From IMG/VR virus record IMGVR_UViG_3300047175_000239, positions 1 through 20,917 of that record: DNA of 20,917 bases; one strand, given 5' to 3'. This document shows positions 2,271 through 20,917 of this stretch, in pieces. Position 1 is the stretch's first letter. Every line of letters begins with the position of its first letter. The notes under the pieces were generated by a model. It searched no databases and was not told the DNA's origin. It saw only the letters and a program-made list of their open reading frames with translations. This stretch comes from a virus. The translations under genes were made by a program, and so were the position numbers.

Positions 2271-2287
2271 AAATCCTTAACAAACTT

Positions 2288-2302
2288 GTTGCTAATTTGT
2301 TC
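2288..2302 (+). promoter_or_regulatory. Near-match second LexA box (GTTG-N7-GTTC)
   Basis: GTTG, seven bases (CTAATTT), GTTC differs from the alphaproteobacterial LexA consensus at one position. It starts 32 bases downstream of the exact box. Its right half overlaps a possible -35 (TTGTTC, 2297-2302), which is 16 bases from a good -10-like TATCAT (2319-2324). A transcript from there would start near 2331. The promoter is weak on paper, since the -35 matches only three of six bases. Confidence 0.35.
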
Positions 2303-2391
2303 CTTGGATGCCAGGATTTATCATCCGATTCGCACTAGAAATTCAAAGGAAACACGTTATGGTTGTGGCCTCGCCCGGTAAAAAACCTCGT

Positions 2392-2421
2392 TTGACAGCG
2401 GTGGATTCGCTTTTGGATGCT
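2392..2421 (+). promoter_or_regulatory. Candidate sigma-70 promoter close to recA (TTGACA, 18 bases, GATGCT)
   Basis: A perfect -35 hexamer TTGACA lies at 2392-2397. The best partner is GATGCT at 2416-2421, which keeps only the A2, T3 and T6 positions of the -10 consensus. It would start transcription about 24 bases before the ATG at 2452. The poor -10 keeps confidence low. Confidence 0.3.
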
Positions 2422-2451
2422 TCGGAAACACAGACCGTGAGGAAGCCGGAT

Positions 2452-3492
2452 ATGGAGAAGAGCAAGGCGCTCGACGCCGCCATGGCGCAGATCGAGCGGG
2501 CCTTCGGCAAGGGCTCGATCATGCGCATGGGCGCCAAGGGCGGCTCTGAGGCCATAGAGACGATCTCGTCAGGCTCTCTCGGGCTCGATCTGGCGCTGGG
2601 GATCGGCGGGTTGCCGCGCGGGCGCGTCATCGAGATCTACGGGCCGGAGAGTTCCGGCAAGACCACGCTGGCCTTGCACGCGATCGCCGAGGCGCAGAAG
2701 CGCGGCGGCGTCTGCGCCTTCGTCGATGCCGAGCACGCGCTCGACCCGACCTATGCCCGCAAGCTCGGCGTCGATGTCGATAACCTTCTGATATCGCAGC
2801 CCGATACTGGCGAGCAGGGGCTCGAGATCGCCGACACGCTGGTGCGCTCCGGCTCGATCGACGTGCTGGTGATCGACTCCGTGGCAGCGCTGGTGCCGCG
2901 CGCGGAGCTCGAGGGCGAGATGGGCGACACGCATGTCGGCCTGCACGCGCGGCTGATGAGCCAGGCGCTGCGCAAGATCACCGGCTCGGTCGCGCGCAGC
3001 AACACGATGCTGATCTTCCTCAACCAGATCCGGCTGAAGATCGGCGTGATGTTCGGCAATCCGGAGACCACGACGGGTGGCAACGCGCTGAAATTCTACG
3101 CCTCGATCCGCATGGAAATCCGCCGCACCGGCTCGATCAAGGACCGCGAGGAGGTCACCGGCAACCATACGCGGGTCAAGGTGGTGAAGAACAAGCTGGC
3201 CCCGCCGTTCCGCCAGGTCGAATTCGACATCATGTTCGGCGAGGGCATCAGCAAGACCGGCGAGCTCGTCGATCTCGGCGTGAAGGCCGGCGTGGTGGAG
3301 AAATCCGGCGCCTGGTTCAGCTATGACAGCCAGCGGATCGGCCAGGGGCGGGAGAACGCCAAGCAGTTCCTGCGCGACAATCCGAAGATGGCGGATGCGA
3401 TCGAGAAGAAGATCCGCGAGCAGTCGGCGGTGATCGCCGAGGCGCTGATGGTTGCCGACAGCGGCGACGCCGAGAGCGACGCGGCGGATTGA
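2452..3492 (+). CDS. recA: Recombinase RecA
   Basis: RecA forms filaments on single-stranded DNA, drives strand exchange and triggers LexA self-cleavage. From the ATG at 2452 the protein has 346 residues, the usual family length. Walker A GPESSGKT falls at 64-71, close to its position in E. coli RecA. Downstream are Walker B-like VLVIDS and the DNA-binding loop text around [18 protein letters not shown], then a short acidic C-terminus. Start choice: 2452 has GAGGA at 2439-2443 with 8 bases spacing. An in-frame ATG at 2359, also with a good site (AAAGGA, 2345-2350), would add 31 residues, but those codons have only about half G/C at position 3, against very high GC3 afterwards. The ATG at 2308 has no ribosome site. 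The upstream gap of 375 bases (2077-2451) carries the LexA boxes and no convincing gene. RecA identity is certain; the exact start is not. Confidence 0.96.
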
Positions 3493-3495
3493 GGG

Positions 3496-3548
3496 CGGGA
3501 TGTACCGGGGGCGCGGCTTGGCGAAAACCGCCGCCCCCTGTAATCCCG
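3496..3548 (+). promoter_or_regulatory. Long imperfect palindrome filling the recA-alaS gap
   Basis: Four paired blocks nest inside one another. CGGGAT (3496-3501) pairs with ATCCCG (3543-3548), TAC (3503-3505) with GTA (3540-3542), GGGGGCG (3507-3513) with CGCCCCC (3532-3538), and CGG (3514-3516) with CCG (3528-3530). This gives about 19 base pairs around an 11-base loop with small bulges. It starts four bases after the recA stop and ends five bases before the alaS ATG. No T run follows, so a simple intrinsic terminator is unlikely. It could be a terminator variant, a translational control hairpin on alaS, or an operator. E. coli AlaRS is known to bind a palindrome at its own promoter. Confidence 0.55.
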
Positions 3549-3553
3549 TAGCC

Positions 3554-6193: not shown

Positions 6194-7695
6194 GCGACCG
6201 GCCCGCCCATGTCGTCTGTATCGGCGCCGGGCCGGCCGGCCTGACCGCCGCCTATCTGCTGATGAAAGCCGGCATCGCCGTGACGGTCCTGGAGACCGAT
6301 CCGGCCTATGTCGGCGGCATCTCGCGCACCGCGACCTATAAAGGGTTCGCGTTCGACATCGGCGGCCACCGGTTCTTCTCGAAGAGCGAGGAGGTGGAGA
6401 CGCTCTGGACCGAGCTGCTCGGCGACGATTTTCTCGACCGCCCGCGCAAATCGCGCATTTTCTATCGCGGCAAGCTGTTCGATTATCCGCTGCGCGCCTG
6501 GGACGCGCTGACCAAGCTCGGCATCGTCGAGGCGGCGCGCTGTGTCGCCTCCTACGGCCGCGCGCGGCTGGTCCGGATCAAGAATCCGAAAAATTTCCAG
6601 GAATGGGTGACCGACAGGTTCGGCCGGCGGCTGTTCGAGATTTTTTTCCGCACCTACACCGAAAAAGTCTGGGGCATGAAATGCACCGAGATCTCGGCCG
6701 ACTGGGCGGCCCAGCGGATCAAGGGATTATCGCTCTCGAAGGCGATCTATCACGCCCTGGTGCCGCAACGAAAAGCCGGCAAGCCGCGCGGCGAAATCAT
6801 CAAGACGCTGGTCGACAGTTTCCGGTATCCGCGCCGCGGGCCGGGGATGTTGTGGGAAGCGGCGGCGGCCAAAATCATCGCCGGCGGCGGCCGCATTCTG
6901 ATGGGCCATGAAGCCACCGCGATCACCTATGAACACGGCATCTACCGCGTCAGCGCGAGGCGCGCGGAGGGCGCGCCCCTGGTCCTGGAGGCGGCGCACG
7001 TGATCTCGACCATGCCGATGCACCGCCTGGCCACCGCGCTCACGCCCGCCTTGCCGCCGCGCGCCGCCGCCGCCGCCGCCGGGCTGCGCTATCGCGATTT
7101 TCTGGTGGTGGCGCTGATCCTGCGCGACCGGCAGCTGTTCGACGATAACTGGATCTACATCCACGACCCGGACGTGAAGGTCGGGCGCATCCAGAATTTC
7201 AAATCCTGGTCGCCGGAGATGGTGCCGGACGCGAAACTCAACTGCTACGGCCTCGAATATTTTTGTTTCGAGGGCGACGGCCTGTGGACCGCCACCGACG
7301 CCGCGCTGATCGCACAGGCCGGCGCAGAGCTCGTCCAGCTTGGCCTGGCCGAACCCGCCGACATCATCGACGGCACCGTCGTGCGGCAGCCGAAAGCCTA
7401 TCCGGTCTATGACGCCGACTATCAGGACCGGGTGAACGACATCCGCGCCGCGCTTGCCGCGCACTACCCGAACCTGCACCTGGTCGGCCGCAACGGCATG
7501 CATAAATACAACAACCAGGATCACGCGATGATGACGGCGATGCTCACCGTCAAAAACATCCTGGCGGGTCACCTGAAATACGATGTCTGGCGCGTCAACG
7601 AGGACGCGCAGTATCATGAGGCTGGTTCGGCCGGCGCCGAGCGCATCGCCCCCGGCGAGATCGGGCCGGAGCGCCTGGTGCCGCGGCGCGTCTAG
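6190..7695 (+). CDS. FAD/NAD(P)-dependent oxidoreductase of the amine oxidase / UDP-galactopyranose mutase-like group
   Basis: A 501-residue flavoprotein. The N-terminal Rossmann motif GAGPAGL (12-18) is followed by the ribose-binding glutamate E35 and the second FAD motif in [11 protein letters not shown] (about 55-65), a text shared by amine-oxidase-like and UDP-galactopyranose-mutase-like proteins. A conserved segment around [20 protein letters not shown] (about 158-177) and a C-terminal FAD contact around [16 protein letters not shown] complete the picture. No signal peptide or membrane segment is evident. Relatives often sit near polysaccharide or glycosyltransferase genes, but none is here, so the substrate is unknown. 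The GTG start overlaps the alaS stop by four bases, indicating translational coupling. The stop overlaps the opposing CDF gene by four bases. Confidence 0.85.
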
Positions 7696-8630
7696 ACGAA
7701 CACGCAGACGCAGGCGGTGCCTTCGGTCTCGAGCTGCAGCGTCGCGTGGCGGATGCCGAAGCGCTCGTCGAGCTCCCGGCACGCCGCCGCCAGCAGCCCG
7801 GCATCATCGGCCGCCTCCGCCCGGATCAGATGCGCGGTCAGCGCCGTGTCGGTGGTGGAGACCGGCCACACATGCAGATCATGCAGGGAAATCACGCCGG
7901 GCAGCGCCACCAGGCACGCCTCGATCTTGTCGGTATCCAGCCCCGGCGGCACCGCATCCATCGCATACCCCACCGCCTGGCGCAGCAGCGACCAGGTCGC
8001 CCAGATCATATAGCCCGACACCGCCAGGCTGATGAGCGGGTCGATCACATTGATATGGGTCAGCAAAATCAGCCCGCCGGCCACCACCGTCGCGGCCGCC
8101 AGCGCGGCATCACCGGCCAGATGCAGAAACGCCCCGCGCACATTCAGATCCCCCTGCCCGCGCAGGAACAGCAGCGCCGAGCCACCATTGACGACGATGC
8201 CGCCGGCGGCGATCAGCATCACCACCCCGCCCGCCACCTCCGGCGTATGGAACAGCCGCAGCACCGCCTCCCAGGCGATCCCGCCGGTGACGATCAGCAG
8301 CGCCACCGCATTGCCCAGGGCCGAAAGGATCGAGGCGCGCCGCTTGCCATAGGTAAAGGTCGCACTCGCCGCCGACATCGCCAGCCGGCCGGCAATATAG
8401 GCGGCCAGCAAGCCCGCCACATCCGACGCATTATGCGCCGCATCCGCCAGCAGCGCGATCGAATGCGCGAACAACCCGGCGGCGATCTCGATGACCATAT
8501 AGGCGAGATTGATCACGATACCGGCCATGAACGCGCCGTTCATCGCCGCCGGCGGCGCATGATGGTGGTGGCCATGCGGATGATCATGGTCGTGATCGTC
8601 GTGATCGTGCGCGTGGGTGAGACTTGCCAT
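7692..8630 (-). CDS. Cation diffusion facilitator (CzcD/DmeF-type) metal efflux transporter
   Basis: This 312-residue inner-membrane antiporter exports divalent metals such as zinc, cobalt or cadmium in exchange for protons. The first 25 residues are a metal-binding tail of alternating His and Asp (DHDDHDHDHPHG then HHHH). About six membrane segments follow. The transport-site motif HxxxD occurs twice, at H66-D70 (HNASD) and H170-D174 (HLAGD). The cytoplasmic C-terminal domain has the family text LHDLHVWPVS (about 249-258) and ends with Cys residues (ACVCV). The ATG at 8630 lacks a clear ribosome site. It lies on the same strand as the phage-like genes, 100 bases downstream of the endolysin, but overlaps the host oxidoreductase stop by four bases, so it is probably a host gene at the junction. 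The metal cannot be told from sequence. Confidence 0.92.
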   Translation of the reverse strand: MASLTHAHDHDDHDHDHPHGHHHHAPPAAMNGAFMAGIVINLAYMVIEIAAGLFAHSIALLADAAHNASDVAGLLAAYIAGRLAMSAASATFTYGKRRASILSALGNAVALLIVTGGIAWEAVLRLFHTPEVAGGVVMLIAAGGIVVNGGSALLFLRGQGDLNVRGAFLHLAGDAALAAATVVAGGLILLTHINVIDPLISLAVSGYMIWATWSLLRQAVGYAMDAVPPGLDTDKIEACLVALPGVISLHDLHVWPVSTTDTALTAHLIRAEAADDAGLLAAACRELDERFGIRHATLQLETEGTACVCVFV

Positions 8631-8730: not shown

Positions 8731-9243
8731 TCAGCCCACAATCGCCCCCGCCAGCGCCACCAGCCGCCGGGACCAGCCCAGTCCGAAATTCGCCCAGCTC
8801 GGCAACCGCGCATAATAATCCACCCGCCGCGCCAGCGCCTCGCGCGCCAGCGCCAGCGCATCGCCGGCCAGCAGCGCCTGCAGGCTGGCCGGCCCCAGCG
8901 CCCCATCCGCCGCCAACCCCGCCGCCTGCTGCAGCCATATCACGGCCCGTCGCCGCCCCGCATTCACCGCCGCATCGAACGCCACCATCGCGATCGGCAA
9001 GGGCAACGCATCGCCCTGCAAGCCCGTCCAATAATCCCGGCGATAGATCTCCGCCGCCGCCGCCGCCGTCAGCCCCGCGATATCCAGCGTCGGATAGGCC
9101 GCCGCGCTGATCCCGTATTTCGTGCCCCGCAGCGCCCCCTGGCCGACCGCGCCCCCCGTCCAATTCCCCGGATCGGCCGCATCCGCACTATACCCGCCCT
9201 CTGCCTGCAGGCTGAACGCCAGACAGCGCGCGAACTTATCCAT
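8731..9243 (-). CDS. GH108 family endolysin (N-acetylmuramidase-like)
   Basis: A 170-residue peptidoglycan hydrolase, the likely endolysin of the tail cluster. It has the family's catalytic glutamate in AEGGY (E15), followed by DPGNWTGG (24-31) and GTKYGIS (40-46). A second conserved stretch FDAAVNAG lies at 89-96. The C-terminal half (about 100-165) has the peptidoglycan-binding type 3 layout that usually follows GH108, including AADGALGPASLQALLA. There is no signal peptide, so release would need a holin. The stretch between the Asp motif and GTKYGIS is longer than in the minimal family pattern. It starts within the last eight bases of the coiled-coil/TM gene and is the last gene of the cluster, 100 bases before the CDF gene. 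No terminator is evident after it. Confidence 0.87.
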   Translation of the reverse strand: MDKFARCLAFSLQAEGGYSADAADPGNWTGGAVGQGALRGTKYGISAAAYPTLDIAGLTAAAAAEIYRRDYWTGLQGDALPLPIAMVAFDAAVNAGRRRAVIWLQQAAGLAADGALGPASLQALLAGDALALAREALARRVDYYARLPSWANFGLGWSRRLVALAGAIVG

Positions 9244-9562
9244 GAAACAACTTCCCCGCGAGCCCGCCGCAGGCCGCCGACAGCACGCTCACCAGCGCCA
9301 GGCTGTTGCGCCGCTCCGCCTCCCGCTCTCCCCTGATCCGCGACAGATCGGCGCGCACATCGCTCACCGCCGTCACCAGCTCGTCGATCTTGGAGAACAG
9401 CTTGGCTATCACCTGGTCCTCCTGCGACAGATACCGCACGCGCCAGGCCTCGAGCGTGTCCGCTTCGCTCTGCAACATCCCCAGCTCCTGGCGCATGCCG
9501 ATCATATCGGCGCGCAACGCCGCCATATCGGCCTGCAACACCGCCACCTCGTCGCTGCCCAT
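9236..9562 (-). CDS. Small coiled-coil protein with C-terminal membrane helix, XhlA/holin-like
   Basis: A 108-residue protein. Residues 5-35 and 55-84 are charged and heptad-like, as in coiled coils. Residues about 86-103 (SLALVSVLSAACGGLAGK) form one hydrophobic helix next to the C-terminus. This layout, together with the overlap of eight bases with the endolysin gene, resembles the XhlA family of phage lysis accessory proteins. An accessory holin or membrane anchor for lysis is inferred; the sequence alone does not prove it. The ATG at 9562 is preferred because AAGGG lies 6 bases upstream. The ATG at 9568 would add two residues but sits directly on that ribosome site. An ordinary small tail-associated membrane protein is the alternative. 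Confidence 0.7.
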   Translation of the reverse strand: MGSDEVAVLQADMAALRADMIGMRQELGMLQSEADTLEAWRVRYLSQEDQVIAKLFSKIDELVTAVSDVRADLSRIRGEREAERRNSLALVSVLSAACGGLAGKLFHG

Positions 9563-9572
9563 GGTCATCCCT

Positions 9573-11714
9573 TCACGCCGGCGTATCGGCGAGCACGATC
9601 GGATAGGTCGTCGCCTGCAGCGGCCAGTTCAGGCGCCAGGCAGCACCCAGATCGCCGCCGATATTCCAGTTCACCGGTGCCGCCAGGCTCCCGGCATTGT
9701 CCGTCACCGCATCGCCGCGGCCGATCTGCGTGCTGCCATAGGGATAGAAAAACAGCACATCGGCAGAAGGATTGGTGATCGCCGACGCCAGGGTCACGGA
9801 CACATGCGTGGCATCGACCCGCGCCGCCGCGCTCGCCGCAATGATCACGCCCGGTGCCGCGACACTGCCGCCATCCATCACCGCGAACCCCGCCCCGGCC
9901 AGCGCCTGCAGCCCGACGACGAGATCATTGCCCGCATCGTGCACGATCGTCAGGATCAGGCTGGTGTCGGAGGCGCGATACACATGCGAAATCCGCGGCC
10001 CGTTCGCCACCGGCAGCCCGCTCGCCGGCACCTGGCCCGCCGGCAGACTGTCCGACAGCCCCATCGCGATCGCCGCCCGCGCCGCCGCATGCGCGCCCAG
10101 CCGCCCATAGCGCAACAGATCGGGCTGGTCGCGATGCTCCGGATCGCCGCCTGAGGACAGCCCGGTGTTCGGATCATAAGCCGCATTCAGCGCATTCGAA
10201 TCCGCCGTCTGCGCCGCAAACACCACGATGTTGTTGGCGCTCACCGAGGCCAGATCGGCGATCGATTCCCGCACCATCTGCACGCCGTCATTGGTCTCGT
10301 ACGGGATCGCATTCCACGCCAGCAGCGGCAGGCTGGCGGCCGTCCGCCCCAGCAGCCCCCGCGTCAGCGACAAAAGCCGCAGCACGCTGGCCTTATACAG
10401 CGCCTTGTTCGCATAGGGCATCGTGCTGTCCTGCTCCGACCAAGGCCAGATCAGAAACGCGATATCGCCCTCATCGGCGGCCGAGACCACGGCCGCACTG
10501 CCGCTCAGATAGGCGCTCAGCGCCGCGAAATCCGGCCCGCCCGCCCAACCGGACGGATCGGATCCATCCCCGGGGTTCGTCAAAAACGTGCCTCCCGACG
10601 CCCCCGGCGGAAACAAAGGCGGCGAGGAGTTGGAAATCGGATGACCGGAAATGATCGAATAGCGGTTCGGCGACAAATACGTATCCGCCTGCACCGCGCA
10701 GATGCCATAGGCAGCCGCCCCCAGATACCACGCCACCCCCTGCGCCAGCGCCAGCGGCCCGCCAGAATTGACGAACCAGGCCGCATTCGACTGCCCCATC
10801 ACCAGCAGATTGACGCCGCGCCGCGCCCCCAGCACCCACCTTCCACTGGCCGCCACCAGCGTACCGACCTCGGCCGCCGTCAGCGCCCGCTCCCAGGTTG
10901 CCGCCTCATGAAACCAGCATTGCGCCGATCCCTGCAGCGACCCGTCATGCAGAAACAGCACCTGCGCATTCGCACTCGCCGGCAACGGATTGGCGACCCC
11001 GGCCGCCACCTGCACCCCATCCAGCCAGACATCCACGCCCACACCGGGCGTATGACGTAGGATCACCGCATGGCTATGCCGCCGCGCCAGCGCCGCCGTC
11101 AGCACCACCGGCTGCACCGCGCTCGGAAACAGCGTCAGGTTCGACCCCTCGCTGCTATCGGCCTGCAGGATCGTCACGCCGCCGGCCGTCGCATGGATCA
11201 GCGGTATCGGCTGGGCATCCCCGTAATAGGTCCCCTGCCGCCAGTTCGGCCGCGTCCAGACCAGATAGCGCGTCCAGGCGACCCCCGAACCGAACTCGAA
11301 ACCCGGATGCGACAATCCCCCATCCGGATCGAGGCTCGGCCCATAGGACACGATCGCCCCGTCCGGCGCCCCCACCGCCCCCAGATACCCGTTCACCCGC
11401 GGCGCCGCGATCGTCGCCACGGGTGCGGTGTCAAAACTCACATGATAAGGCAGCAGCGCCCGCCCGGCCCCGGACTTGTCCAGCAGCGACCCCACGACCG
11501 CGCCGCTCGCGGTCACGGGCGCGCCATTCGCATCCAACAGCCCGCTCAGCACCCCGGCATCCCACCAGCCGGACAGGCCGGCAATCGCCGACGGATAGGG
11601 CCCGGTAAACACCCCCGCCGCCACCGTGCTCCCCGCCGGCAATGCGGCGACCAGCGCCCGCTTGCCCGCCGCCGTCAGCAGCGGCGCACCCGACGCATCG
11701 AACAGCAGCGCCAC
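9573..11714 (-). CDS. Phage tail-associated protein with LamG-like and SGNH-hydrolase (carbohydrate esterase-like) domains
   Basis: A 713-residue protein with a short N-terminal attachment-like segment (LLFDASGAPLL). A concanavalin/LamG-like beta-sandwich follows at about 100-292, ending in the typical CWFHEAATWERALTAAEV text. An SGNH-type hydrolase spans about 300-550, with the nucleophile block GQSN (S309), the block IWPWSEQDS at 422-430 resembling the W-x-x-G-E-S-D of sialate O-acetylesterases, and a terminal Asp/His block DPEHRDQ (D524, H527). A beta-rich tail covers about 560-713. The likely role is de-O-acetylation of a surface glycan met by the tail; this is inferred from domain type. 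The start is GTG one base after the stop of the preceding fibre gene, with GGTGA upstream. The stop overlaps the ribosome site of the next gene. Confidence 0.72.
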   Translation of the reverse strand: MALLFDASGAPLLTAAGKRALVAALPAGSTVAAGVFTGPYPSAIAGLSGWWDAGVLSGLLDANGAPVTASGAVVGSLLDKSGAGRALLPYHVSFDTAPVATIAAPRVNGYLGAVGAPDGAIVSYGPSLDPDGGLSHPGFEFGSGVAWTRYLVWTRPNWRQGTYYGDAQPIPLIHATAGGVTILQADSSEGSNLTLFPSAVQPVVLTAALARRHSHAVILRHTPGVGVDVWLDGVQVAAGVANPLPASANAQVLFLHDGSLQGSAQCWFHEAATWERALTAAEVGTLVAASGRWVLGARRGVNLLVMGQSNAAWFVNSGGPLALAQGVAWYLGAAAYGICAVQADTYLSPNRYSIISGHPISNSSPPLFPPGASGGTFLTNPGDGSDPSGWAGGPDFAALSAYLSGSAAVVSAADEGDIAFLIWPWSEQDSTMPYANKALYKASVLRLLSLTRGLLGRTAASLPLLAWNAIPYETNDGVQMVRESIADLASVSANNIVVFAAQTADSNALNAAYDPNTGLSSGGDPEHRDQPDLLRYGRLGAHAAARAAIAMGLSDSLPAGQVPASGLPVANGPRISHVYRASDTSLILTIVHDAGNDLVVGLQALAGAGFAVMDGGSVAAPGVIIAASAAARVDATHVSVTLASAITNPSADVLFFYPYGSTQIGRGDAVTDNAGSLAAPVNWNIGGDLGAAWRLNWPLQATTYPIVLADTPA

Positions 11715-11715
11715 G

Positions 11716-13872
11716 TCAGGTCACCGTGATCGTAAAGCTGCTGACCGCCACACTCGTCCCGGCCGCCGTCTCGACCCAGACATAATAGCTCCCCGGCGTC
11801 GCCGGCGTCGGACAATAAACCGCCCATATCGCGTTGCCGTAGATCAGGCTCGCCGCCGTCCACCCCGATGTCGGCGCGACCGTGTTCGAGGTCGAGAGCG
11901 CCACCTGCGTCGCCACCACCTGCGGCGGATTGACGGCGCCGTTCAGCCCCACCGTCCCCGTCCCGTGCACGAACGTCCCGCCCGGATTATTGATCCCATA
12001 GGACAAAGTCGCCGCGGCGGAGACCACGATCGCCGCCGACACCGACGCGATCCCGCTCGCCGCATCCTGCGCCCAGGCATAATAGGTCCCCCCCTGCGCC
12101 GGCGTCAGGCTGGCCGTGAACGCCCCCGCCACATTCGTCGCCTGCGTCCACCCCGTCGTCGGCACCGTCAGATTCTGCGTCGCCAGCTGCACGTTCACCG
12201 CATCGCCGGCCGGGCTCACGGTGCCCGACACGCTCAGGGCGCTCCCCGCCGTCCCGGTCGCCGGCACACTCACCGTGATCGACGCCGCCACCACCGACAC
12301 CGCGCTCGAGATCGCCGCCACCGACGGGCTCGCCGTCTGCTCGGCCCAGACGTAATAGGTCCCAGCCGCGGCCGGAGAGAGCGACGCCGTCCACGCGCCA
12401 TCCGCCACCACCGCGTTCACCCAGCCGCCCGGCGCCACCGTGGCACTCGTCGACAGCCCGACCTGCACCGCCACATTCCCCGGCGCCACACTGCCGGAGA
12501 GCGACAGCACAGAGCCCAGCGCCACCGTCGCCGGTACCGCGTTCAACCCGATGCTCGGCTGCGCGATGGTAAAGCTGTTGGACACGCCAATCACCGCGAT
12601 ATTCCCATGATCGCGCACCCGCACGGCATAGCTCCCGGGCGCCAGGCCGCCGATCGTGAAACTATAGGCATTCGCAGTGATCACCGGGCTCGCCGCCGGC
12701 AGCCAGCTGCTGCCGCCATCGGTCGAATAATCCAGCGCCGTCGGCGCATCGTTGAACACCCCGCCGACCACGGCGAACGGCGTCTCCGGCGCCGGCGCCA
12801 CGATCGTGCCGACCGTCAGCGTCGGCGCGTTCGGCACGATGCCGCTCCACCAGATCAGCGACCCGCCGGAATAGCTGAGCCCGACCAGCGACGTCGCCGC
12901 CCCCGGCGGCAAGCTCGTCCCGCCGGAGCCCGAGCTGATGCCGGTGCCGAATGTGACCACGCCCGACGCCAGATTGATCAGCGTGCAGGCAAACCCCGCC
13001 CCGGTATTGCTGAAATTCGCCGTCAGAGTCAGCGGCTGGCTCGCCACCAGGATCCGGTCGTTATGCTGCGTCGAATCCAGCACCGTATCGCCGGTCAGCT
13101 CCACGACCCCCTGCTGCACGGTCGGCAGTTTCGTCTCGACATAGGTCCACAGCGCGCCAAAACTCTGCGAGCTCAGCGCGTTACCACCCTGCGCCACCAG
13201 CAATTCATCGGAATCTGAAACCGGCCCCGCGGCCGCCAGCTGGTCGATCGTCTGCCCGCCCAGAAACTGCCCATAGGGCATCCAGGCGAGCGCCCCGTTC
13301 TGCCAGAGCGCCACGTAATCCGAGGCCCCGACGGTGCTCGCACTATTCCCCGCGGCCGGGCCGGACAGCCCCGCCCCCGCCGCGCCGGCAGGACCGCTCG
13401 CCCCCGCCGGCCCGGCCGGCCCCGCCGGCCCCACGGGCCCCGCCGGCCCGGCGATCGAAGAGACCGTCACGCTGACGACGCCGTTCGCGTCGATCGCCAC
13501 ACCCGGCCCGGCCGAAAACAACCCGCGCAGCGCGCTCGCCGGCAGCAGCCCCGGCGCGCCGGCGCTGCTGATCACGATGTCATCCGACAGCGACATCGCG
13601 CTCTGCACCGGAAACCCGGCATGATCCGCCCCGGTCGCCGCCAACGCGCCGGCGGAGATCTCCAGCCCGGTGCCGACCGCCACACTCTCCGGCCCGCCCG
13701 CCCCGGTGCTCACCCGCCCCAGCAACGTCCCCGTCGGCACGCTGATCACCGCCTGCGACGACGCCGTCAGCTGCGCCACCGTCACCGCATAGAGCGTGCC
13801 CGCCTGCGACAGCGGCAGCAGGTCGCCCGCCCCCACCGACGCGGCGGCCGGCAATTGCGAAATCGTCGTCAT
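11716..13872 (-). CDS. Modular tail fibre with collagen-like stretch and tandem Ig-like repeats
   Basis: A 718-residue elongated fibre. Residues 1-80 match the N-terminus of the neighbouring tailspike gene, so this is probably the baseplate or adaptor docking module. Related short units recur at about 87-122, 176-206 and 212-247. A collagen-like run of Gly-Xaa-Yaa triplets lies at 142-165. From 346 the protein is a series of beta-sandwich domains, with three clearly related units at about 437-529, 530-620 and 621-718, each with a G-T/S-Y-Y-x-W core. No enzymatic motif is seen, so adhesion or spacing is the likely role. The ATG at 13872 has only a weak upstream GGGGA. The gene sits 46 bases after the tailspike gene and one base before the esterase-like gene. 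Confidence 0.72.
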   Translation of the reverse strand: MTTISQLPAAASVGAGDLLPLSQAGTLYAVTVAQLTASSQAVISVPTGTLLGRVSTGAGGPESVAVGTGLEISAGALAATGADHAGFPVQSAMSLSDDIVISSAGAPGLLPASALRGLFSAGPGVAIDANGVVSVTVSSIAGPAGPVGPAGPAGPAGASGPAGAAGAGLSGPAAGNSASTVGASDYVALWQNGALAWMPYGQFLGGQTIDQLAAAGPVSDSDELLVAQGGNALSSQSFGALWTYVETKLPTVQQGVVELTGDTVLDSTQHNDRILVASQPLTLTANFSNTGAGFACTLINLASGVVTFGTGISSGSGGTSLPPGAATSLVGLSYSGGSLIWWSGIVPNAPTLTVGTIVAPAPETPFAVVGGVFNDAPTALDYSTDGGSSWLPAASPVITANAYSFTIGGLAPGSYAVRVRDHGNIAVIGVSNSFTIAQPSIGLNAVPATVALGSVLSLSGSVAPGNVAVQVGLSTSATVAPGGWVNAVVADGAWTASLSPAAAGTYYVWAEQTASPSVAAISSAVSVVAASITVSVPATGTAGSALSVSGTVSPAGDAVNVQLATQNLTVPTTGWTQATNVAGAFTASLTPAQGGTYYAWAQDAASGIASVSAAIVVSAAATLSYGINNPGGTFVHGTGTVGLNGAVNPPQVVATQVALSTSNTVAPTSGWTAASLIYGNAIWAVYCPTPATPGSYYVWVETAAGTSVAVSSFTITVT
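11719..12564 (-). repeat. Three tandem Ig-like repeats encoded in the fibre gene
   Basis: Residues 437-529, 530-620 and 621-718 of the fibre align by the shared elements L-S/N-G-x-V-x-P near the start, Q-V/L-x-L-x-T-x-x-x-x-P-x-x-G-W in the middle, and G-T-Y-Y-x-W-A or G-S-Y-Y-V-W-V near the end. Their DNA spans are about 12286-12564, 12013-12285 and 11719-12012. A more distant unit precedes them at residues 346-436. Confidence 0.75.
13378..13449 (-). repeat. Collagen-like Gly-Xaa-Yaa tract in the fibre gene
   Basis: Eight consecutive triplets, mostly GPA with GPV, GAS and GAA, cover fibre residues 142-165. Such tracts form trimeric triple helices in phage fibres, so a trimeric shaft is likely. 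At the DNA level the tract is a run of GC-rich, near-repeated 9-base units and could be prone to length change. Confidence 0.85.
13633..13872 (-). repeat. N-terminal docking module, copy in the Ig/collagen fibre
   Basis: The first 80 residues share the pattern M-T-T-I-x-Q-L-P, A-A-S-V, D-x-L/A, Q-x-G, A-Q-L, T-L-L-x-x-V and a P-x-x-V-x-x-G-x-x-L stretch with residues 1-80 of the tailspike encoded at 13919-16477. It is probably a duplicated attachment domain. Confidence 0.75.
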
Positions 13873-13904
13873 GAGCAGAATATCCCCGAGGCGAATGTGA
13901 AGCA

Positions 13905-13920
13905 GAGCGCCGCCGCGCTC
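13905..13920 (-). other. Small perfect hairpin overlapping the tailspike stop codon
   Basis: GAGCGC and GCGCTC pair around a four-base loop in the only sizeable gap (46 bases) between two tail genes. The stem overlaps the stop codon at 13919-13921. The downstream bases are not T-rich, so a partial terminator or mRNA-stability element is only a possibility. Confidence 0.3.
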
Positions 13921-16477
13921 AGGCGACCGCGACCCAGTGGCCGGAGCCGGTGACCTGGTTCACCCAGAACGTGCTCCCGGCGCCACCGTTAAGATTCCGA
14001 AACGTCGAGCCCGCCGGCGCGCTCACCGTATTCAACGGCGAGCCGCGGCCGATCAGCTCCGCCGCCCCGGTCGATTCGGTATCGGAAAGGATAGACACCG
14101 TCCCCGTCCCCGCCGGATGCAGCGACAGATTGCCGGACCGCGTCCGCAGCGTCAGGCTGCCATCCCCGTTCGGCGACACGTAATCGCTCTGCGAAAACCG
14201 CGCCGCCCGCCAACCGCCATTATAGCCGATCCAATCAACGGTCGCCCCCGCCGGCACGGTGATCGGCGCGCCGGTCCAGTTACTCTGCGCCGGCGATGCC
14301 CCGGCATCGGCAAACACCGTCGCCACCAGGCAATCCACGCTCAACGACCGCCCCGGCAGCGGCGGCAATCCCACCTGCGCCGTCGCCGCCGCCCCGCCCC
14401 CGTCGCCGGTGATCGTCACGGTCGTGCCGGCGCCATAGCCGCTGCCGAAACTGCTCATCTGTATGCCGAGGATCTTCCCGTTCGAGATGAACGCCGTCGC
14501 CGCCGCCCCGGTCCCGGTCCCCGAAAAACTCACCGTCGCGGTCGTATAGCCGATCCCGGCATCGACCAGGGTGCAATAGGTGATCGTCCCCGCCGCCAGT
14601 GCGGCCTGCCCGCTCACCATGCTCGCCACCGGCGCGCTCGCCTGCGAGATGCTCACCGCATCCGCCAGATCGGGATAGGTCAGCGTATACACACCATTGA
14701 CCAGCACCGGATTGACCGCGGCGCGCGACGTATAATTCAACAGATTCCCGCGAATCGTGGCCGAACCGGTATAGGCGGACAGCGCATTGGTCAGATTCGC
14801 CCCGGCCCCGCCGACCACGATATTGCCCTCGATCAGAATATTCTGCGCGTTATCGCGCACGAGTATCCCCACGGCATTGCCGCCATAATTGATCCAATTC
14901 CCGATGATCGAAAGCCCGGTGCAGGCGAGATTGAAATTATCCCCCGCCCCGTTCGACTCCACATTCTGCACGGCGATGCTGCTGCCGGTGCAATCCTGGA
15001 TGAAATTCGCCCGCGCCGTGCAATACTGCCCGCCACCGATGTTCAACCCGATCAGCGCGCCGTTGATATAGTTGTTATCGACCTCCGTATTGATCGACCC
15101 GCCGCAATCGATCCCGAACGCCGAGGCCCCGGTGATCATATTGCCCGTCACCTTGCAATAGCCGGTATCGCACAGAATCCCCGCCCCACCCTGCGCCAGC
15201 GAACTGTTATTCGTACACAGATTGGCCGCCACCAGGATGTTACGGCCGGAGATGAAAATCCCATAGCCCTTGTTGCTGAAACAATTATTCCCCAAAATCA
15301 GCGCCGCCAGCACGTCCGGATTGGCGTTCCCATACAGAAACGGCTGCACATCCACATTATTGGCAACGAAATTGCCGACCAGAATGCCGACATTATTGTT
15401 CCAGCAGGTGTTGCCGACGATATGCAGCTGCCTGATCTTCAGCGTGAACGTCGGATCCTGGCTGTCGATGAAAATCCCATCGACGCCGTTGTCATGGCTG
15501 CTGCAATTGGTGATGCTCAGCGCATCGAGCGCCACGGCATAGAATCCATGCACCACATTGCCGGTGAATTCGCAATGATCGATCCGGTGCTGTGTCACCG
15601 TCGGATCGCTCGAAAAATACGCGAGGCCCGAGCCCGCGCCGGCGCCCTGCGCGTTGCGGAACACGCAATTCGTCACCAGCGACTTCGTGCAGCTCGCCTG
15701 CACCACGACCCCATAGGTCGTCTGCGTGATCGTGCTGTTCGCATCGAAGATCACGCCGTCCAGCACCAGCGACGCCGCCGAAAAACTCAGCCACGCCGGC
15801 GCGCCCGACGTCCCCAGCTTCGACTGCGCGGAGCGCTTCAATATCGTCAGCCCCGCCACGCCCAGCAGCGTGCAGGCGCTGCCCGACACATCGCATTCCC
15901 CGGCGATGGCATAGGTCTTCGCCCCCAGCCGCACCGGCGCCCCGCTCGCCACCGCCGCCAGCAGTGCGGCGCTATCATCCGTCACGCCATCGCCCTTGGC
16001 GCCGAAATCCTCGATCGACACCGCATTCGCCGCAATCGCATCCAGCGTCCGCGCCGTCGTCGCCCCGCTCGCCGTCGCGGTCAGCGCGCCGCCCGGCACG
16101 CCCGCCACATTGCCCAGCCCCGCCAGAAAATTGGCATAGCTCACGCCGACATTCGCCCCCGCCTGCCCGATCGGCACGATATCGCCCGCCCCCGGCGTGC
16201 TCCCGCCCGGCAACCCGGCGATCACGAACGGCGACGCCATCGCGGATAACGTATCGCCGGAGAGCGACAAATTCGCCCCGATGCTGACCGGCACGGGTGC
16301 GGCCGTCCCCGGCCCGACCCCGGCCAGCAGCGTATTCTGCGGCAGCGTCAGCGACCTCTGCACCCCGGCCAGCAGCTGCGCCCGGCTCGCCGCCAGAGTC
16401 TGCCCGTTCTGAAAAATCGCGAGCTCATCGGTGTCTGACACCGAAGCCGCCGGCGGCAATTGCCCGATCGTCGTCAT
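13919..16477 (-). CDS. Tailspike with pectate-lyase-3-like right-handed beta-helix
   Basis: An 852-residue tailspike candidate. Residues 1-80 are the docking module shared with the next fibre, and a related unit lies at 89-123. At 153-172 is the entry motif of pectate-lyase-superfamily phage spikes (FGAKGDGVTDDSAAL). From about 200 to 580 there are repeating beta-helix rungs with many short motifs such as GNTCWNN, GNNCFSN and GNMITG. The segment 636-702 holds two units of a G-x-G-Y ... G-A-x-A-T-A repeat known from phage structural proteins. The C-terminal part (about 740-852) is likely a trimer tip. Binding or cleaving a surface polysaccharide is the usual role of such spikes; no catalytic pair can be assigned by eye. 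The ATG at 16477 has GAGGTGA upstream. The core is Cys-rich (15 Cys between 195 and 519). Confidence 0.82.
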   Translation of the reverse strand: MTTIGQLPPAASVSDTDELAIFQNGQTLAASRAQLLAGVQRSLTLPQNTLLAGVGPGTAAPVPVSIGANLSLSGDTLSAMASPFVIAGLPGGSTPGAGDIVPIGQAGANVGVSYANFLAGLGNVAGVPGGALTATASGATTARTLDAIAANAVSIEDFGAKGDGVTDDSAALLAAVASGAPVRLGAKTYAIAGECDVSGSACTLLGVAGLTILKRSAQSKLGTSGAPAWLSFSAASLVLDGVIFDANSTITQTTYGVVVQASCTKSLVTNCVFRNAQGAGAGSGLAYFSSDPTVTQHRIDHCEFTGNVVHGFYAVALDALSITNCSSHDNGVDGIFIDSQDPTFTLKIRQLHIVGNTCWNNNVGILVGNFVANNVDVQPFLYGNANPDVLAALILGNNCFSNKGYGIFISGRNILVAANLCTNNSSLAQGGAGILCDTGYCKVTGNMITGASAFGIDCGGSINTEVDNNYINGALIGLNIGGGQYCTARANFIQDCTGSSIAVQNVESNGAGDNFNLACTGLSIIGNWINYGGNAVGILVRDNAQNILIEGNIVVGGAGANLTNALSAYTGSATIRGNLLNYTSRAAVNPVLVNGVYTLTYPDLADAVSISQASAPVASMVSGQAALAAGTITYCTLVDAGIGYTTATVSFSGTGTGAAATAFISNGKILGIQMSSFGSGYGAGTTVTITGDGGGAAATAQVGLPPLPGRSLSVDCLVATVFADAGASPAQSNWTGAPITVPAGATVDWIGYNGGWRAARFSQSDYVSPNGDGSLTLRTRSGNLSLHPAGTGTVSILSDTESTGAAELIGRGSPLNTVSAPAGSTFRNLNGGAGSTFWVNQVTGSGHWVAVA
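16238..16477 (-). repeat. N-terminal docking module, copy in the tailspike
   Basis: Residues 1-80 of the tailspike are paralogous to residues 1-80 of the Ig/collagen fibre, including the shared opening M-T-T-I-x-Q-L-P and the D-x-L/A, Q-x-G and A-Q-L positions. Confidence 0.75.
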
Positions 16478-16486
16478 CGCATCACC

Positions 16487-16969
16487 TCAAAGAATTGTCA
16501 GCGGCGTGCCGGTCGGATCGGTCAGCGGCTGCCCGCTCTGCGTCGTCAGCGCACTCGGCGCCGCCACCACCGTCGCCAGCGCCGCCACCGGCAGCGCGAT
16601 GCTGCGCGCCAGCGTCCGCCCGCCGGCGGTCGCAATCGTCAGCGTCACGACATAGGTCGTCAGCGCCTGGCCGCCGCTCAGCCACAGCACCGCGCGCGTG
16701 CCATCCGCCGCCGCCGACATCAGCGACAGATCACCCACCGCATCCGGGCTGATCGCGACATCGATCGTGCTGATCGTATCACCCGGATTCGCCGTCAGCG
16801 CCGGCGCGATGTCGAACACATAATCCAGCGTATCGCCCGGATCCTTCACCGGCCACACCAGCGGTGCGGCCGGCGGCACGAGCGGCCCGCGCGGCACTGG
16901 AACGAACCCGTCGATCTGCAAATAACGCGCCGCCGACGGACGCCACAAATGCGTCGTTACTGTGGTCAT
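16487..16969 (-). CDS. Phage fibre-tail adaptor-like protein
   Basis: A 160-residue protein that resembles the small adaptor proteins linking a fibre to the tail. The key text is VKDPGDTLDYVFDI followed by GDTISTIDVAI, then a strand-rich region with a hydrophobic LTTYVVTLTIATAGG and RSIALPV, consistent with an Ig-like fold. There is no signal peptide or enzymatic motif. The ATG at 16969 is preferred because GAGGGG lies about 9 bases upstream. A GTG at 16978 would add three residues but sits on that site. It lies between the glycine-rich fibre and the tailspike, which suits a linker role for one of them. The assignment is by pattern recall and position, so it is moderate. Confidence 0.6.
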   Translation of the reverse strand: MTTVTTHLWRPSAARYLQIDGFVPVPRGPLVPPAAPLVWPVKDPGDTLDYVFDIAPALTANPGDTISTIDVAISPDAVGDLSLMSAAADGTRAVLWLSGGQALTTYVVTLTIATAGGRTLARSIALPVAALATVVAAPSALTTQSGQPLTDPTGTPLTIL

Positions 16970-16982
16970 CGCTGCCACCCCC

Positions 16983-18236
16983 TCAATATTCGACGATCAC
17001 GACACCGGCGCCGCCGGCGCCGCCGGGATACCCCACCGGATTGGCGCCGGTGCTACAGCCGCCACCGCCGCCGCCGCCGCCATAGCCCTGCGCCGGCGTC
17101 CCCGCCTCAGGGCCGCTCGCCCCCCGCCCGTTGCAGGGCCCGCCGCCATCACCACCGCGGCAGGCGACGACGATCCCATCGCCGCCGTCGCCGCCCCCGA
17201 AATTCACCTGCCCGTTATAGGCCGCCCCGCCACCGCCCCCGGCATTGGCAAAAATCGTCGCCGTCCCGCCAATCCCGCCAACGCCGCCATTCGCGATCAT
17301 GAACGAACCGAAACTCGACGCCCCGCCGCTCGTGCCATTCCCTGGCCCGCCCGGCGCCGCACCGCCCGCCCCCACGGTCACGGCCACCGCCTGCCCGGCG
17401 CTCAGGCCGCTCACGATCCCCTCGGCCCGCCCGCCGGCACCCCCGCCGCCGCTCGGCATCGTGCTGTGATAACCGCCAGACCCGCCGCCGCCGATCACCG
17501 TCACCCGCGCCATCGTCACGCCGTTCGGCACGCTGAACGTCCCGGACTGCGCAAACACCTGCATCGTCGAGAATCCCGGCCGCAGCGCCGGCAACTTATA
17601 AGCAATGAACGGCGCCCCCGCGGCCGGCGCGATGCTCGCCGCCGTCACCGCCGACTGCCCATAATTCACGGTGATCACGTAAAGCCCGACCCAGCCTGTA
17701 TCCACCGCCGGCGTGCTCTGCGTCCCCGCCGCCGCCGCCGCGCCGGGCTTGAGCTGCAGCTGCACCCGCTGGATCCGCTGCGTGTTCTGCGCCGTCCCCG
17801 AATTGTTCGGCCCCGAATAGGGCTGGCTGGTATTCGCCGCGTTTACATAAGGCAGCACCACCGCATCGGTATCGCTCTCGCCGAACGTCGCCTCGATCAG
17901 ATAATCGATCGACTGTCCCGAACTCGCCGGCGCCGTCAGCGCGAAACTCGTCGCCTGCAGATTGATCCCGGTCTTGACGATCTGGTCCGTCACATCGGCG
18001 CCGAGCGAGCCATACGCCGTCGCATCCACGCTGGTCAGCTGCGTGATGCTGCCGGGCCCCACCACCACCGTCAGCGACGCCGGCGCTGTCGGCGTGCACG
18101 CCAACCCATCCGCAACCGGACCCTGCCCCAGCACCGCGGCGGAGAGTGCCGCGATCCCCACCATCGCGTTGCGGTTCGGGTACAGTATATCCGTATCCAG
18201 CGGGATGCTCCCGGGATAGACAATATTACGATCCAT
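16983..18236 (-). CDS. Tail fibre protein with glycine-rich receptor-binding-type tip
   Basis: A 417-residue protein in the position of the P2 fibre gene H. Residues 1-215 form a phage-type N-terminal part (opening MDRNIVYPGSIPLDTDILYP, with a beta-rich region to about 215). From about 227 the text changes to FAQSGTFSVPNGVTMARVTV and then a long glycine-rich domain of repeated GGGG, GGAGG and GGxGG blocks, closing with GAGVVIVEY. Glycine-rich tips of this kind occur on phage fibres and adhesins. They can pack as polyglycine-II helices with variable loops that choose the receptor; applying this here is inference. The ATG at 18236 has GAGGA about 8 bases upstream, and the gene begins nine bases after the I-like gene. 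Confidence 0.75.
   Translation of the reverse strand: MDRNIVYPGSIPLDTDILYPNRNAMVGIAALSAAVLGQGPVADGLACTPTAPASLTVVVGPGSITQLTSVDATAYGSLGADVTDQIVKTGINLQATSFALTAPASSGQSIDYLIEATFGESDTDAVVLPYVNAANTSQPYSGPNNSGTAQNTQRIQRVQLQLKPGAAAAAGTQSTPAVDTGWVGLYVITVNYGQSAVTAASIAPAAGAPFIAYKLPALRPGFSTMQVFAQSGTFSVPNGVTMARVTVIGGGGSGGYHSTMPSGGGGAGGRAEGIVSGLSAGQAVAVTVGAGGAAPGGPGNGTSGGASSFGSFMIANGGVGGIGGTATIFANAGGGGGAAYNGQVNFGGGDGGDGIVVACRGGDGGGPCNGRGASGPEAGTPAQGYGGGGGGGGCSTGANPVGYPGGAGGAGVVIVEY
16986..17558 (-). repeat. Glycine-rich tip domain coding region
   Basis: It encodes residues 227-417 of the fibre, a region dominated by Gly with Ala, Ser, Asn and scattered aromatics. On the + strand it shows as runs of GCCGCCGCC-like trinucleotides, for example near 17061-17085. 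It is coding low complexity, not a separate DNA element. Confidence 0.7.
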
Positions 18237-18245: not shown

Positions 18246-18902
18246 TCAGTTGGAGATGTTCATCCAGGCGATGCTCGCCGTCGGCAGCACCGCGGCCGCC
18301 GCGGCATAGATCTCAGCATCGCCTACAGACCCCGCCAGCGCCGCCGCATCGGCATAAAACATCGGCGCGACACCATAACCGCCAGGCCCGACCGCATAGC
18401 CACCGGCATTGCTGATCGGCGTATCATTCGGCCGATACGCCGTCACAAAAAACTGATAAGGCAGATTGCGGCTGCCATAACCGCCCTGGCAATTATAGCC
18501 GAGGTTGACATTATACCCGCCGGTATCGGCGGCATTCAGCGGCTCGAAAATCCGCGGCGCGCGCTGCGTCAATCCCACCAGCGCCGCACTCAGCCCCGCC
18601 CGCGTGGCACCCTGCGTAATCAAATTCCCCAGCAGCCGCGCGCGAAACGCCGCATCCGCCTCACCCGCCCGCCGCGGCAACCGCCCGCCCAGATAATCCG
18701 CCGAAGCGATATCCAGAAAAATCCCGCTCGCCGTCGCCATCCGCGCCTGCGCGCTCACCTGCCCCAGCAACCGATACAAACCGCTCCAGGCACTGGCGAG
18801 CCCGGTCAGCAACCCATCCAGAACCGGCGTGACATCGCCGAACCATCGCGCCGGCAGCACCACCTTCAGCCGCGCCAGCATATCCGCCACATCGCCGGTC
18901 AT
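18246..18902 (-). CDS. Baseplate/tail protein I-like
   Basis: A 218-residue protein. The first 120 residues are helical with the pattern IASADYLGGRLPRRAGEADAAFRARLLGN (about 65-93, discussed as D-Y-L-G, then E-x-D-x-x-F-R-x-R). This fits the tail protein I and related baseplate families. Residues 129-165 are rich in Gly, Tyr and Asn (GGYNVNLGYN, GGYGSRNLPYQFF), suggesting an insertion or a strand-rich lobe. Its place between baseplate J and the fibre gene is that of P2 gene I, which connects the baseplate with the fibres. The ATG shares one base with the J stop (TGATG), so the two are translationally coupled. Sequence similarity to I is modest by eye, and position is the stronger support. Confidence 0.62.
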   Translation of the reverse strand: MTGDVADMLARLKVVLPARWFGDVTPVLDGLLTGLASAWSGLYRLLGQVSAQARMATASGIFLDIASADYLGGRLPRRAGEADAAFRARLLGNLITQGATRAGLSAALVGLTQRAPRIFEPLNAADTGGYNVNLGYNCQGGYGSRNLPYQFFVTAYRPNDTPISNAGGYAVGPGGYGVAPMFYADAAALAGSVGDAEIYAAAAAVLPTASIAWMNISN

Positions 18903-20026
18903 CAGGACACCGCGACCGTGCCGGCACGCACCGCGCCGAACAAACCGGGCGTCAGATCTTCTGTACCCCCGTTCAACAACAGGCCGGACACATTCGTCAC
19001 GGTGCTCGAAGCGCCATAGGCGATCTGCGCCAGCCGCGTATAGCTCAGCGCCGCCCCCACCGAGAGGCTCGCAATATAGCTCTCGATCGCCGCCGCCACC
19101 GCCGCCACCGCCGCCGCGTGCGACGCCCCGGCCGCCGTCACCAGGCTCACCGAAATATTCGCGGCCGTCACCACCGGCCCCTGCACCGCGAAACTCGTCC
19201 CCACCGGCCGCACCGCCTCCACCGCCTGCTGCACGGTGCTCAGCAGACTTGCCGGCGGGCTGCCCGACCCATCATCCACCGTCACCACGAAATGCCCCAT
19301 CTGCACGCCACCGGCCTGGTCGACATTCTCGCTGATCACATAGCTCAGCCCCTGCTGGATCGCCGCGACCGCAGCGCCCACCGCCAGAGTCGTCGCCCGC
19401 GCCAGGCTCGCCAGATAATTTCCGAACCGCGCCCGAAACGCCGCATCGCTCTCCGCATCCGCGCCGCCGGCCAGCACCAGCGCGTTCGTCACACTATCCA
19501 CGCCGGCGATCGCCGAGGTGATCAGGCTGATCGCCCCCGGCTGCACATTCCCCGCCGCCCCCGCCACCGTCGCCACCACCGGCACCGTCACGCTCGCCAC
19601 ACCCGCCGCCAGCACATAACCGCCAAGCGACACATTGAACGCGGCATTGCTCGGATCGGCCACCACCGTATAAACCTGACCATTCGCCGCGGTCGCCACA
19701 TCGCTGCCCTCCGGCACGACGGCCGCAACACTCGGCGAAAACCGAGAAAACGTCACAAACCCCGTCGCCGCCACCGCCGGCAACCGCGCAAACCCGAAAT
19801 CGGCCCCGAAACTATCGCAATCCGCCCCGCTGCTCGTCGCCAGCCGCGTCGTCGCCAGCACCTGCACGATCAACCACTGCAGCCACAGCGCCAGCGACGC
19901 ATTCGCCTCCAGAATCGCCCGCAACACAGACCCGACGGTCAAATCCAGCAAACTCTGCGCCGCCCCCTGCACGGACGCCGCCATGTTCTCGACCAGCGTC
20001 GAGAAATTCTGCAACGACAGATTCAT
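18902..20026 (-). CDS. Baseplate protein J
   Basis: A 374-residue baseplate J-like (gp47-like) wedge protein, part of the baseplate rim of contractile tails. Features include the N-terminal helix region ending in FGFARLPA (about 78-84), the strand text GFVTFSRFSPSVAAVVPEGSDV at about 89-110 (read as G-F-V-T-F then P-E-G-S), GGADAESDAAFRARF (187-201) with the conserved E-S-D-x-x-F-R-x-R motif, and a C-terminal repeat of beta-alpha units with ISVSLVTAAG. There is no signal peptide. The ATG at 20026 has AGG about 5 bases upstream, and the gene starts six bases after the gp25-like gene. Its order with the gp25-like and I-like genes is typical of myophages. Confidence 0.82.
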   Translation of the reverse strand: MNLSLQNFSTLVENMAASVQGAAQSLLDLTVGSVLRAILEANASLALWLQWLIVQVLATTRLATSSGADCDSFGADFGFARLPAVAATGFVTFSRFSPSVAAVVPEGSDVATAANGQVYTVVADPSNAAFNVSLGGYVLAAGVASVTVPVVATVAGAAGNVQPGAISLITSAIAGVDSVTNALVLAGGADAESDAAFRARFGNYLASLARATTLAVGAAVAAIQQGLSYVISENVDQAGGVQMGHFVVTVDDGSGSPPASLLSTVQQAVEAVRPVGTSFAVQGPVVTAANISVSLVTAAGASHAAAVAAVAAAIESYIASLSVGAALSYTRLAQIAYGASSTVTNVSGLLLNGGTEDLTPGLFGAVRAGTVAVS

Positions 20027-20032: not shown

Positions 20033-20395
20033 CTACAGCGAAAATGAAAGAACAGACGTCGATCCGCTCGGCGCATCGGCATAGCTCAGCGACAGAACGA
20101 ACGTCCCGTCGCCGCCATCCTGCACGCTGATCACCGGGCTCGGCGTGCTCGCCACCGCCGCCTCCTGCAACAGCTGCGTGCGCGCCACCCCGGCGATCGC
20201 CGCCGGCGCCCCCGGCTGCCCGACGAACTGCGCCAGCCCCGCGCCATACCCCAGCTGCCAGATATAATCCCCGGCATTCGTCAGCAGCCGCCGCAGCACC
20301 CGCTCCTGCGTCAGCCCCACGCCATCGCTCAACCCCAGATCACCGGTCGGCCCCACCGCCAGATCCCCACCGAACTGCAGCGCCAGATCAGCCAT
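20033..20395 (-). CDS. Baseplate wedge protein of the gp25/W-type
   Basis: A 120-residue protein, the usual size of gp25/W-like wedge proteins that start sheath assembly in contractile tails. It has a G-rich opening with DLAVGPTGDLGLSDG (11-25), then a helix GLTQERVLRRLLTNAGDYIWQLGYGAGL (27-54) of a type typical of this family and the Mu gp46 relatives, and a C-terminal strand GDGTFVLSLSYADA. The ATG at 20395 overlaps the stop of the upstream gene (TGATG). A GTG immediately before it is not needed. The match is by pattern and by position between the V-like and J genes. Confidence 0.72.
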   Translation of the reverse strand: MADLALQFGGDLAVGPTGDLGLSDGVGLTQERVLRRLLTNAGDYIWQLGYGAGLAQFVGQPGAPAAIAGVARTQLLQEAAVASTPSPVISVQDGGDGTFVLSLSYADAPSGSTSVLSFSL

Positions 20396-20917
20396 CACAC
20401 CGTCACCGTCGTCGTTCCCGTCACCCCGCCGGCCGGCACCGGATGCTCATGCGCATCATAAGCATTCCGCAACGAAGCCACCGTCCCATGCGCCCCCGCC
20501 AGATCCGAAATATTACCGCTCACCACCAGATCACCCGCGACATTCACCACCGGCGCCTGCAGCGCGATCGTCCCATCATTATGCAGCTTCAAAAAACTGC
20601 CGCTCCGATGCACCAGCCACGCCTCGCCCGCCGGCGCCGCCAAAGGCGTATCCACCAGCGACCACACAGCCCCCACGATCACGCCCTGCTCGGCATCGCC
20701 TTCCTGCGCGATCACCAGCACCTGCGCCCCCGGCGTCAGCGGCGCGGCAAACCCCCACCCCGCCCCCACCCAGCTCGAGACGATCGGCAACCACCCGCTC
20801 AACACGTTCTCCGGCTGTATCAACACCCGCGCCGCATAGGACGAAGGATCGAAACTCGACACCAAACCAAAGCGCGCCACGCCGCTCAGCCCATCCAAAA
20901 CCCCCGCCTGCGCCTTC
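20395..20917 (-). CDS. Baseplate assembly protein V-like (5' end outside the window)
   Basis: At least 174 residues are visible. The frame has no stop up to the right edge, so the true start is probably beyond base 20917. The TTG at 20898 would give 167 residues but has no special support. The N-terminal part reads GVARFGLVSSFDPSSYAARV, then WLPIVSSWVGAGWGF and PGAQVLVIAQEGDAEQGVIVGAVWS, the text of an OB-fold spike hub. Next comes KLHNDGTIALQAPVVNVAGDLVVSGNI, a short beta-helix needle. The C-terminal AHEHPVPAGG with its HxH pattern resembles metal-binding spike tips in this family. The protein would form the membrane-piercing spike. Confidence 0.75.
   Translation of the reverse strand, partial: KAQAGVLDGLSGVARFGLVSSFDPSSYAARVLIQPENVLSGWLPIVSSWVGAGWGFAAPLTPGAQVLVIAQEGDAEQGVIVGAVWSLVDTPLAAPAGEAWLVHRSGSFLKLHNDGTIALQAPVVNVAGDLVVSGNISDLAGAHGTVASLRNAYDAHEHPVPAGGVTGTTTVTV

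Follow-up and report, generated by a model that had tools for sequence, protein, structure and literature searches.

Four adhesin genes as the probable receptor-recognition end of a domesticated, gene transfer agent-like contractile phage particle in acidophilic Acetobacteraceae

The window analysed here is the whole 20,917-base virus record IMGVR_UViG_3300047175_000239, and the phage module it carries is therefore cut at gpV. This single module occupies positions 8731-20917 on the minus strand and comprises 11 genes, from gpV to a GH108 endolysin; its fibre genes are read from right to left in the window. The gpV-like baseplate spike protein (20395..20917; Phage_base_V, 7e-7) has lost its 5' end at the contig end, and its gene is colinear in 34 genome loci. 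It is followed by a conserved gpW-like baseplate wedge (20033..20398; phrog_120 baseplate wedge, 5e-4), the gpJ baseplate protein (18902..20026; Baseplate_J, 3e-41) and a gpI-like tail protein (18246..18902; phrog_26379, 2e-59), recognised also by its place after gpJ. The next five genes form the fibre set: glycine-rich-tip fibre, adaptor, beta-helix spike, collagen/Ig-like fibre and LamG-SGNH protein. A coiled-coil protein with a C-terminal hydrophobic stretch (9236..9568) stands in a holin/spanin-like position; it gave weak Rz/holin matches, and its gene is kept in 22 loci. The endolysin (8731..9243; Glyco_hydro_108, 2e-19; PG_binding_3, 1e-6) closes the module.

Beyond the module lies host sequence. 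A CDF cation-efflux gene (7692..8630, minus strand; Cation_efflux, 5e-34) adjoins the block in the window lineage, as it does in two other contigs (L088 and L110). ABC, phoU, phoB, recA, alaS and FAD oxidoreductase genes fill positions 2..7695 on the plus strand. The CDF neighbour was considered as a general insertion site and rejected, as it was not adjacent to the block in the 25 genomes tested.

Four different tips in a row, with one adaptor-like gene among them, had been described in an earlier note on this DNA, and gene order, profile matches and the intactness of the genes bear this out. The glycine-rich-tip fibre (16983..18236) matched Gly_rich_2 (2e-10) and phrog_863 (2e-23). The adaptor (16487..16978) matched the adaptor family of podophage GP4 gp77 (PF23148, 2e-24; PDB 8jou chain D, 1e-7) and is, on these matches, predicted to be of the GP4 gp77 type. 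The fourth gene of the set (11716..13872) was confirmed as a fibre (phrog_366 tail fibre, 3e-4), whereas the collagen and Ig labels given to it earlier are weak by profile (Collagen, 0.017; Ig_2, 0.11). This fibre and the beta-helix spike have in common an N-terminal module of about 120 residues, with 40% identity (E 2e-11), which suggests a common docking site for the two proteins. The earlier proposal of a branched set of tips is consistent with this common module and with the known type of the adaptor, and the fibre set may thus have a branched geometry.

The spike (13919..16477) matched Beta_helix (7e-15) and Pect-lyase_RHGA_epim (7e-8). Its AF2 model, built as a monomer, reached pLDDT values mostly of about 85-95 between residues 160 and 760, falling lower around residues 370 and 510, and the predicted fold is, with confidence in the model, a right-handed beta-helix. 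Foldseek aligned the model with tailspikes and AlgE (mannuronan) epimerases, at query-normalised TM-scores of at most 0.37. Conservation mapped on the monomer model revealed many invariant acidic residues, none of them assignable as catalytic, and PDB profile and fold matches yielded no active-site pair. The beta-helix fold named earlier for this protein is borne out, with a likeness to known tailspikes and epimerases, and the glycan cleavage proposed earlier is a possible activity of it.

The LamG-SGNH protein (9573..11714) matched no Pfam family at E<=1, a PDB profile search gave no relevant match, and the phage collection contained no match. It carries the motifs GQSNA (S309), WPWSEQDS and DPEH (D524/H527). 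Among 27 homologues, S309 was found in all 27, D524 in 24 and H527 in 25, and E427 and D429 were invariant. The structure model (mean pLDDT 81) matched the sialic-acid esterase SIAE (8f9p), the CE2 esterase 2waa and the deacetylase FI8 (9h4u), as well as jelly-roll lectin folds. The N-terminal half also aligned strongly with lectin-like domains in large proteins that are otherwise unrelated, which we attribute to the generic likeness of jelly-roll folds. The SGNH domain named earlier is thus substantiated: its Ser-Asp-His motifs and modelled fold identify the protein as a predicted SGNH hydrolase of the acetylesterase type, which probably binds and de-O-acylates a surface glycan. The earlier idea that the tips bind, cleave and deacetylate one polymer in successive steps is hypothetical. 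In one lineage, represented by G016 and G021, the motifs are changed to GGSNA and APSY (SGNH genes at L168, 18301-20385, and L175, 18303-20405, respectively). There dN/dS of the gene rises to 0.31, and esterase activity has likely been lost.

Relatives of the window were collected by gpJ, and named Acidocella, Acidiphilium and Acidisphaera genomes are among them. The fibre genes keep one order in these three genera, where they end a colinear block of about 24 kb comprising terminase, portal, capsid, sheath, baseplate and fibre genes, with lysis genes in most; terminase to lysin spans about 23.5 kb. In A. aromatica, the large terminase, portal, capsid, sheath and tube genes and a CI-like regulator lie upstream of gpV. 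Head genes fall outside the window, which is cut before the head region, and for its own element they would be expected from these relatives. A headless, R-type tailocin was the first hypothesis; it was dropped because the relatives encode terminase, portal and capsid.

The block resides at fixed host positions. In Acidocella it lies at one site, between a glycosyltransferase gene (GT2) and rplT (ribosomal protein L20), and in Acidiphilium at a second one, between groESL and a ppk-like gene whose likeness to polyphosphate kinase was judged by eye. The capsid gene is single-copy wherever present (25 of 38 genomes in one genus and 9 of 13 in the other); the capsid match is absent from the other 13 and 4 genomes, through loss or genome incompleteness. 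Among the matches listed, no PF00589 tyrosine integrase lay closer than 20 kb to the block in any of 17 genomes. Instead of belonging to the P2-like tail that had been assumed as their context, the fibres thus stand at one end of a phage-derived block that keeps its place and is passed on mainly by vertical descent.

Inheritance was assessed against AlaS, the sole host marker in the co-diversification comparison. Distances between block genes correlated with those of host AlaS for all block genes (r 0.65-0.92). Maximum-likelihood trees of the structural and fibre genes had 11 of 20 and 12 of 20 bipartitions, respectively, in common with the AlaS tree; in 500 label permutations, at most 4 (structural) and 3 (fibre) were in common. 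This partial congruence, far above the permutations, supports co-diversification with the host and mostly vertical inheritance. The element and AlaS trees differ in part, therefore some exchange or error remains.

The block is also under purifying selection, with dN/dS mostly of 0.05-0.3 and a maximum of 0.36. Of 42 relatives with sufficient flanking sequence, 41 have all five fibre-set genes intact and colinear; in the remaining one, G085, no SGNH gene was detected. Their dN/dS values of about 0.06-0.31, together with this intactness, indicate that they are neither chance ORFs nor the remnants that would have undone the earlier reading; all the ORFs are open. Receptor-binding tips usually change rapidly. 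Here the fibres match the baseplate in conservation (median identities of 64-70%, versus 66% for gpJ), and this difference from usual tips supports domestication.

The most surprising part of the block lies outside the window. It is a slot flanked by the tail chaperone gene on one side and the tube-initiator-like gene on the other, beyond the window's reach and seen in relatives, which in phage phiKX1 holds a 743-aa tape measure. The window's relatives have ORFs of 245-400 aa in this slot or, in ten Acidocella genomes forming one clade in the AlaS tree, no ORF. In the tube-to-LysM region of these ten (G001, G002, G004, G006, G007, G008, G010, G012, G016 and G021) the tape-measure ORF is wholly absent; sheath and tube are still under selection. 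Many slot ORFs have in common a motif of the kind QARLPPSGxTGFDPRLTPAWAG at the C-terminus. In 18 metagenome loci whose upstream region is present, the N-terminus of the slot ORF belonged to one of three unrelated classes, with partner genes ahead of it: a three-helix membrane protein for class A, a signal-peptide protein for class B, and a small membrane protein plus a NAGPA-domain enzyme for class C. ORF class and partner class agreed in 17 of the 18 loci, class A locus L026 having no partner. Partner genes are duplicated in L011, L043, L277 and L279, and L025/L258 keep an orphan partner and an orphan anchor. Different classes occur on sister backbones that are 91-94% identical (L264/L255, L281/L258 and L270/L260). 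Class B resembles a tail lysozyme (phrog_27932, 2.6e-4), with invariant R/E/GAYQ.

Searches of Pfam, NCBIfam and PDB gave no convincing match for the slot ORFs. A search of 397 Acetobacteraceae genomes, run without a positive control, gave no match for the class A partner; the cassettes are therefore known here only from metagenome contigs. Exchangeable slot ORFs were noted in L025, L011, L043, L073, L082 and L255-L281. The NAGPA phosphodiester-glycosidase-like gene travels with the class C partners (L025:5305-6273, L073:4093-5061 and L085:3585-4547), and its L073 copy matched PF09992 (1e-11). In L023, an extra beta-helix-like ORF (5983-7104) separates the slot ORF from the tube-initiator-like gene.

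In these relatives the slot thus combines a variable module, a constant anchor and a cognate adjacent partner. Judged from gene arrangement, the slot bears the hallmark of polymorphic effector/immunity modules, whose effectors would be toxic, and in some relatives the slot may hold exchangeable cargo with cognate immunity. We tentatively propose, at somewhat less than even odds, that in a vertically inherited, head-bearing contractile particle the tape-measure position has become an effector/immunity cargo slot, probably envelope-targeting, alongside a fixed four-adhesin set.

Altogether, we consider, with a probability of roughly 0.6, that the four adhesins serve receptor recognition at one end of a domesticated, gene transfer agent (GTA)-like contractile phage particle, mainly vertically inherited in acidophilic Acetobacteraceae. 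The host would express the particle in the manner of a gene transfer agent or of PBSX, and cells would lyse to release it. Released particles would bind relatives through the fibre set, as its conservation suggests. The glycine-rich fibre and the adaptor would be placed beside gpI, and the spike and the collagen/Ig fibre would plug into a common site by their shared N-terminal module. The LamG-SGNH protein would bind and probably de-O-acylate the surface glycan. Finally, the particle would contract and deliver DNA packaged in the head, cargo carried by the tail, or the two together.

PBSX and tailocins kill relatives. A bacteriocin-like weapon, in which a head-bearing particle mainly kills relatives with toxic cargo in the tape-measure slot while the fibres choose the victims, is the strongest alternative, although we regard it as unlikely; it is not exclusive of the GTA-like reading, and the two are compatible. 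Its case is made by the slot: three unrelated ORF classes that end in one conserved motif and are each accompanied by a distinct family of secreted or membrane partners, the near-complete matching of class-assigned ORFs and partners, the tandem duplications and one orphan module, the switching of classes between closely similar backbones, and the lysozyme-like class B. However, the slot holds a short ORF or is empty in most cultured relatives, the class A locus without a partner departs from the pattern, and capsid and terminase, which killing does not need, stay under strong selection.

An ordinary temperate prophage, truncated in the window by the contig end, is improbable. The phage relatives phiKX1 and phiKX2 are indeed induced prophages with replication genes and the 743-aa tape measure, and their kinship with the block (46-50%) points to a phage ancestry and allows for relatives that are mobile. 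The relatives' blocks, however, show neither the nearby integrase (among the matches listed) nor the replication genes of such a prophage, the window itself ending at gpV, and they have fixed host sites, a single copy and co-diversification with the host. A decaying, non-functional remnant, as the ten genomes without a tape-measure ORF and the SGNH motif loss in G016/G021 might suggest, is even less probable, since all genes are open and dN/dS is well below 1 across genera.

The block is a testable candidate for a contractile-tailed, GTA-like element, present in cultured A. aromatica, A. facilis and A. rubrum. Our literature search found no report of a contractile-tailed GTA-like element in Acetobacteraceae. 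That the receptor-binding proteins are conserved, not diversifying, suggests that the particle is of use to its host. If the cargo-slot proposal holds as well, natural antibacterial effectors and their immunity proteins would be found in an extracellular phage-derived particle, whose traits would then be partly those of a gene transfer agent and partly those of an antibacterial injection system.

Phages G7C (gp63.1) and CBA120 (TSP1-4) are examples of branched receptor-binding systems whose spikes are SGNH proteins or depolymerases. The block resembles G7C, CBA120 and Possum (PMC9569702) in having several tips, among them one SGNH-type esterase and one beta-helix spike. Those are virulent phages with usually fast-changing tips, whereas the set described here is conserved across genera.

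For the slot, the nearest precedents are the MuF polymorphic toxins, which are phage head proteins (PMC5576092), and Sle1/Tme, tape-measure-like effectors of actinobacterial contractile injection systems, one of which has an immunity partner (PMC13277306). All of them place an exchangeable toxic module on a phage structural anchor, with an immunity partner in some. Sle1-type proteins join an N-terminal coiled coil to a C-terminal effector, whereas the slot ORFs have a variable N-terminus and a conserved C-terminal motif. Unlike either precedent, the slot ORFs stand where the tape measure would be, in an alphaproteobacterial element that bears a head.

Of the features by which Kogay et al. 2022 (PMC9662315) define GTAs, three were found here: structural proteins derived from caudoviricetes, endogenization and mostly vertical inheritance. 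The definition further names the packaging of host DNA that is largely random, a head too small for the element's whole genome (the block measures about 24 kb) and the delivery of DNA to other cells, which the particle may share. Like RcGTA and BaGTA, the block has Caudoviricete genes for head, tail and lysis that sit at fixed sites and diversify with the host by vertical descent; its tape measure is short, and no integrase lies nearby among the matches listed. It differs from them in its contractile sheath, four adhesins and phiKX1-related origin, and its packaging and transfer of DNA are putative. The Komagataeibacter phages phiKX1 and phiKX2 (LC644975 and LC644976) are alike in gpJ (46%), sheath (50%) and tail gene order, and their tape-measure ends resemble the ends of the Acidisphaera slot ORF; they differ in being temperate prophages of 53 kb that carry replication genes. 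Finally, the available text of an independent 2025 study of Sphagnum (peat moss) metagenomes describes phage-like regions from Acetobacteraceae, common to its samples, that have no modules for excision or replication, and core-virome contigs that, as in the block, carry gpVWJ along with genes for structure, packaging and lysis (PMC12142844). Likened by description, these contigs are probably the same or related elements, and to what that text covers the present analysis adds the vertical inheritance of the block, its fibres and its possible cargo.
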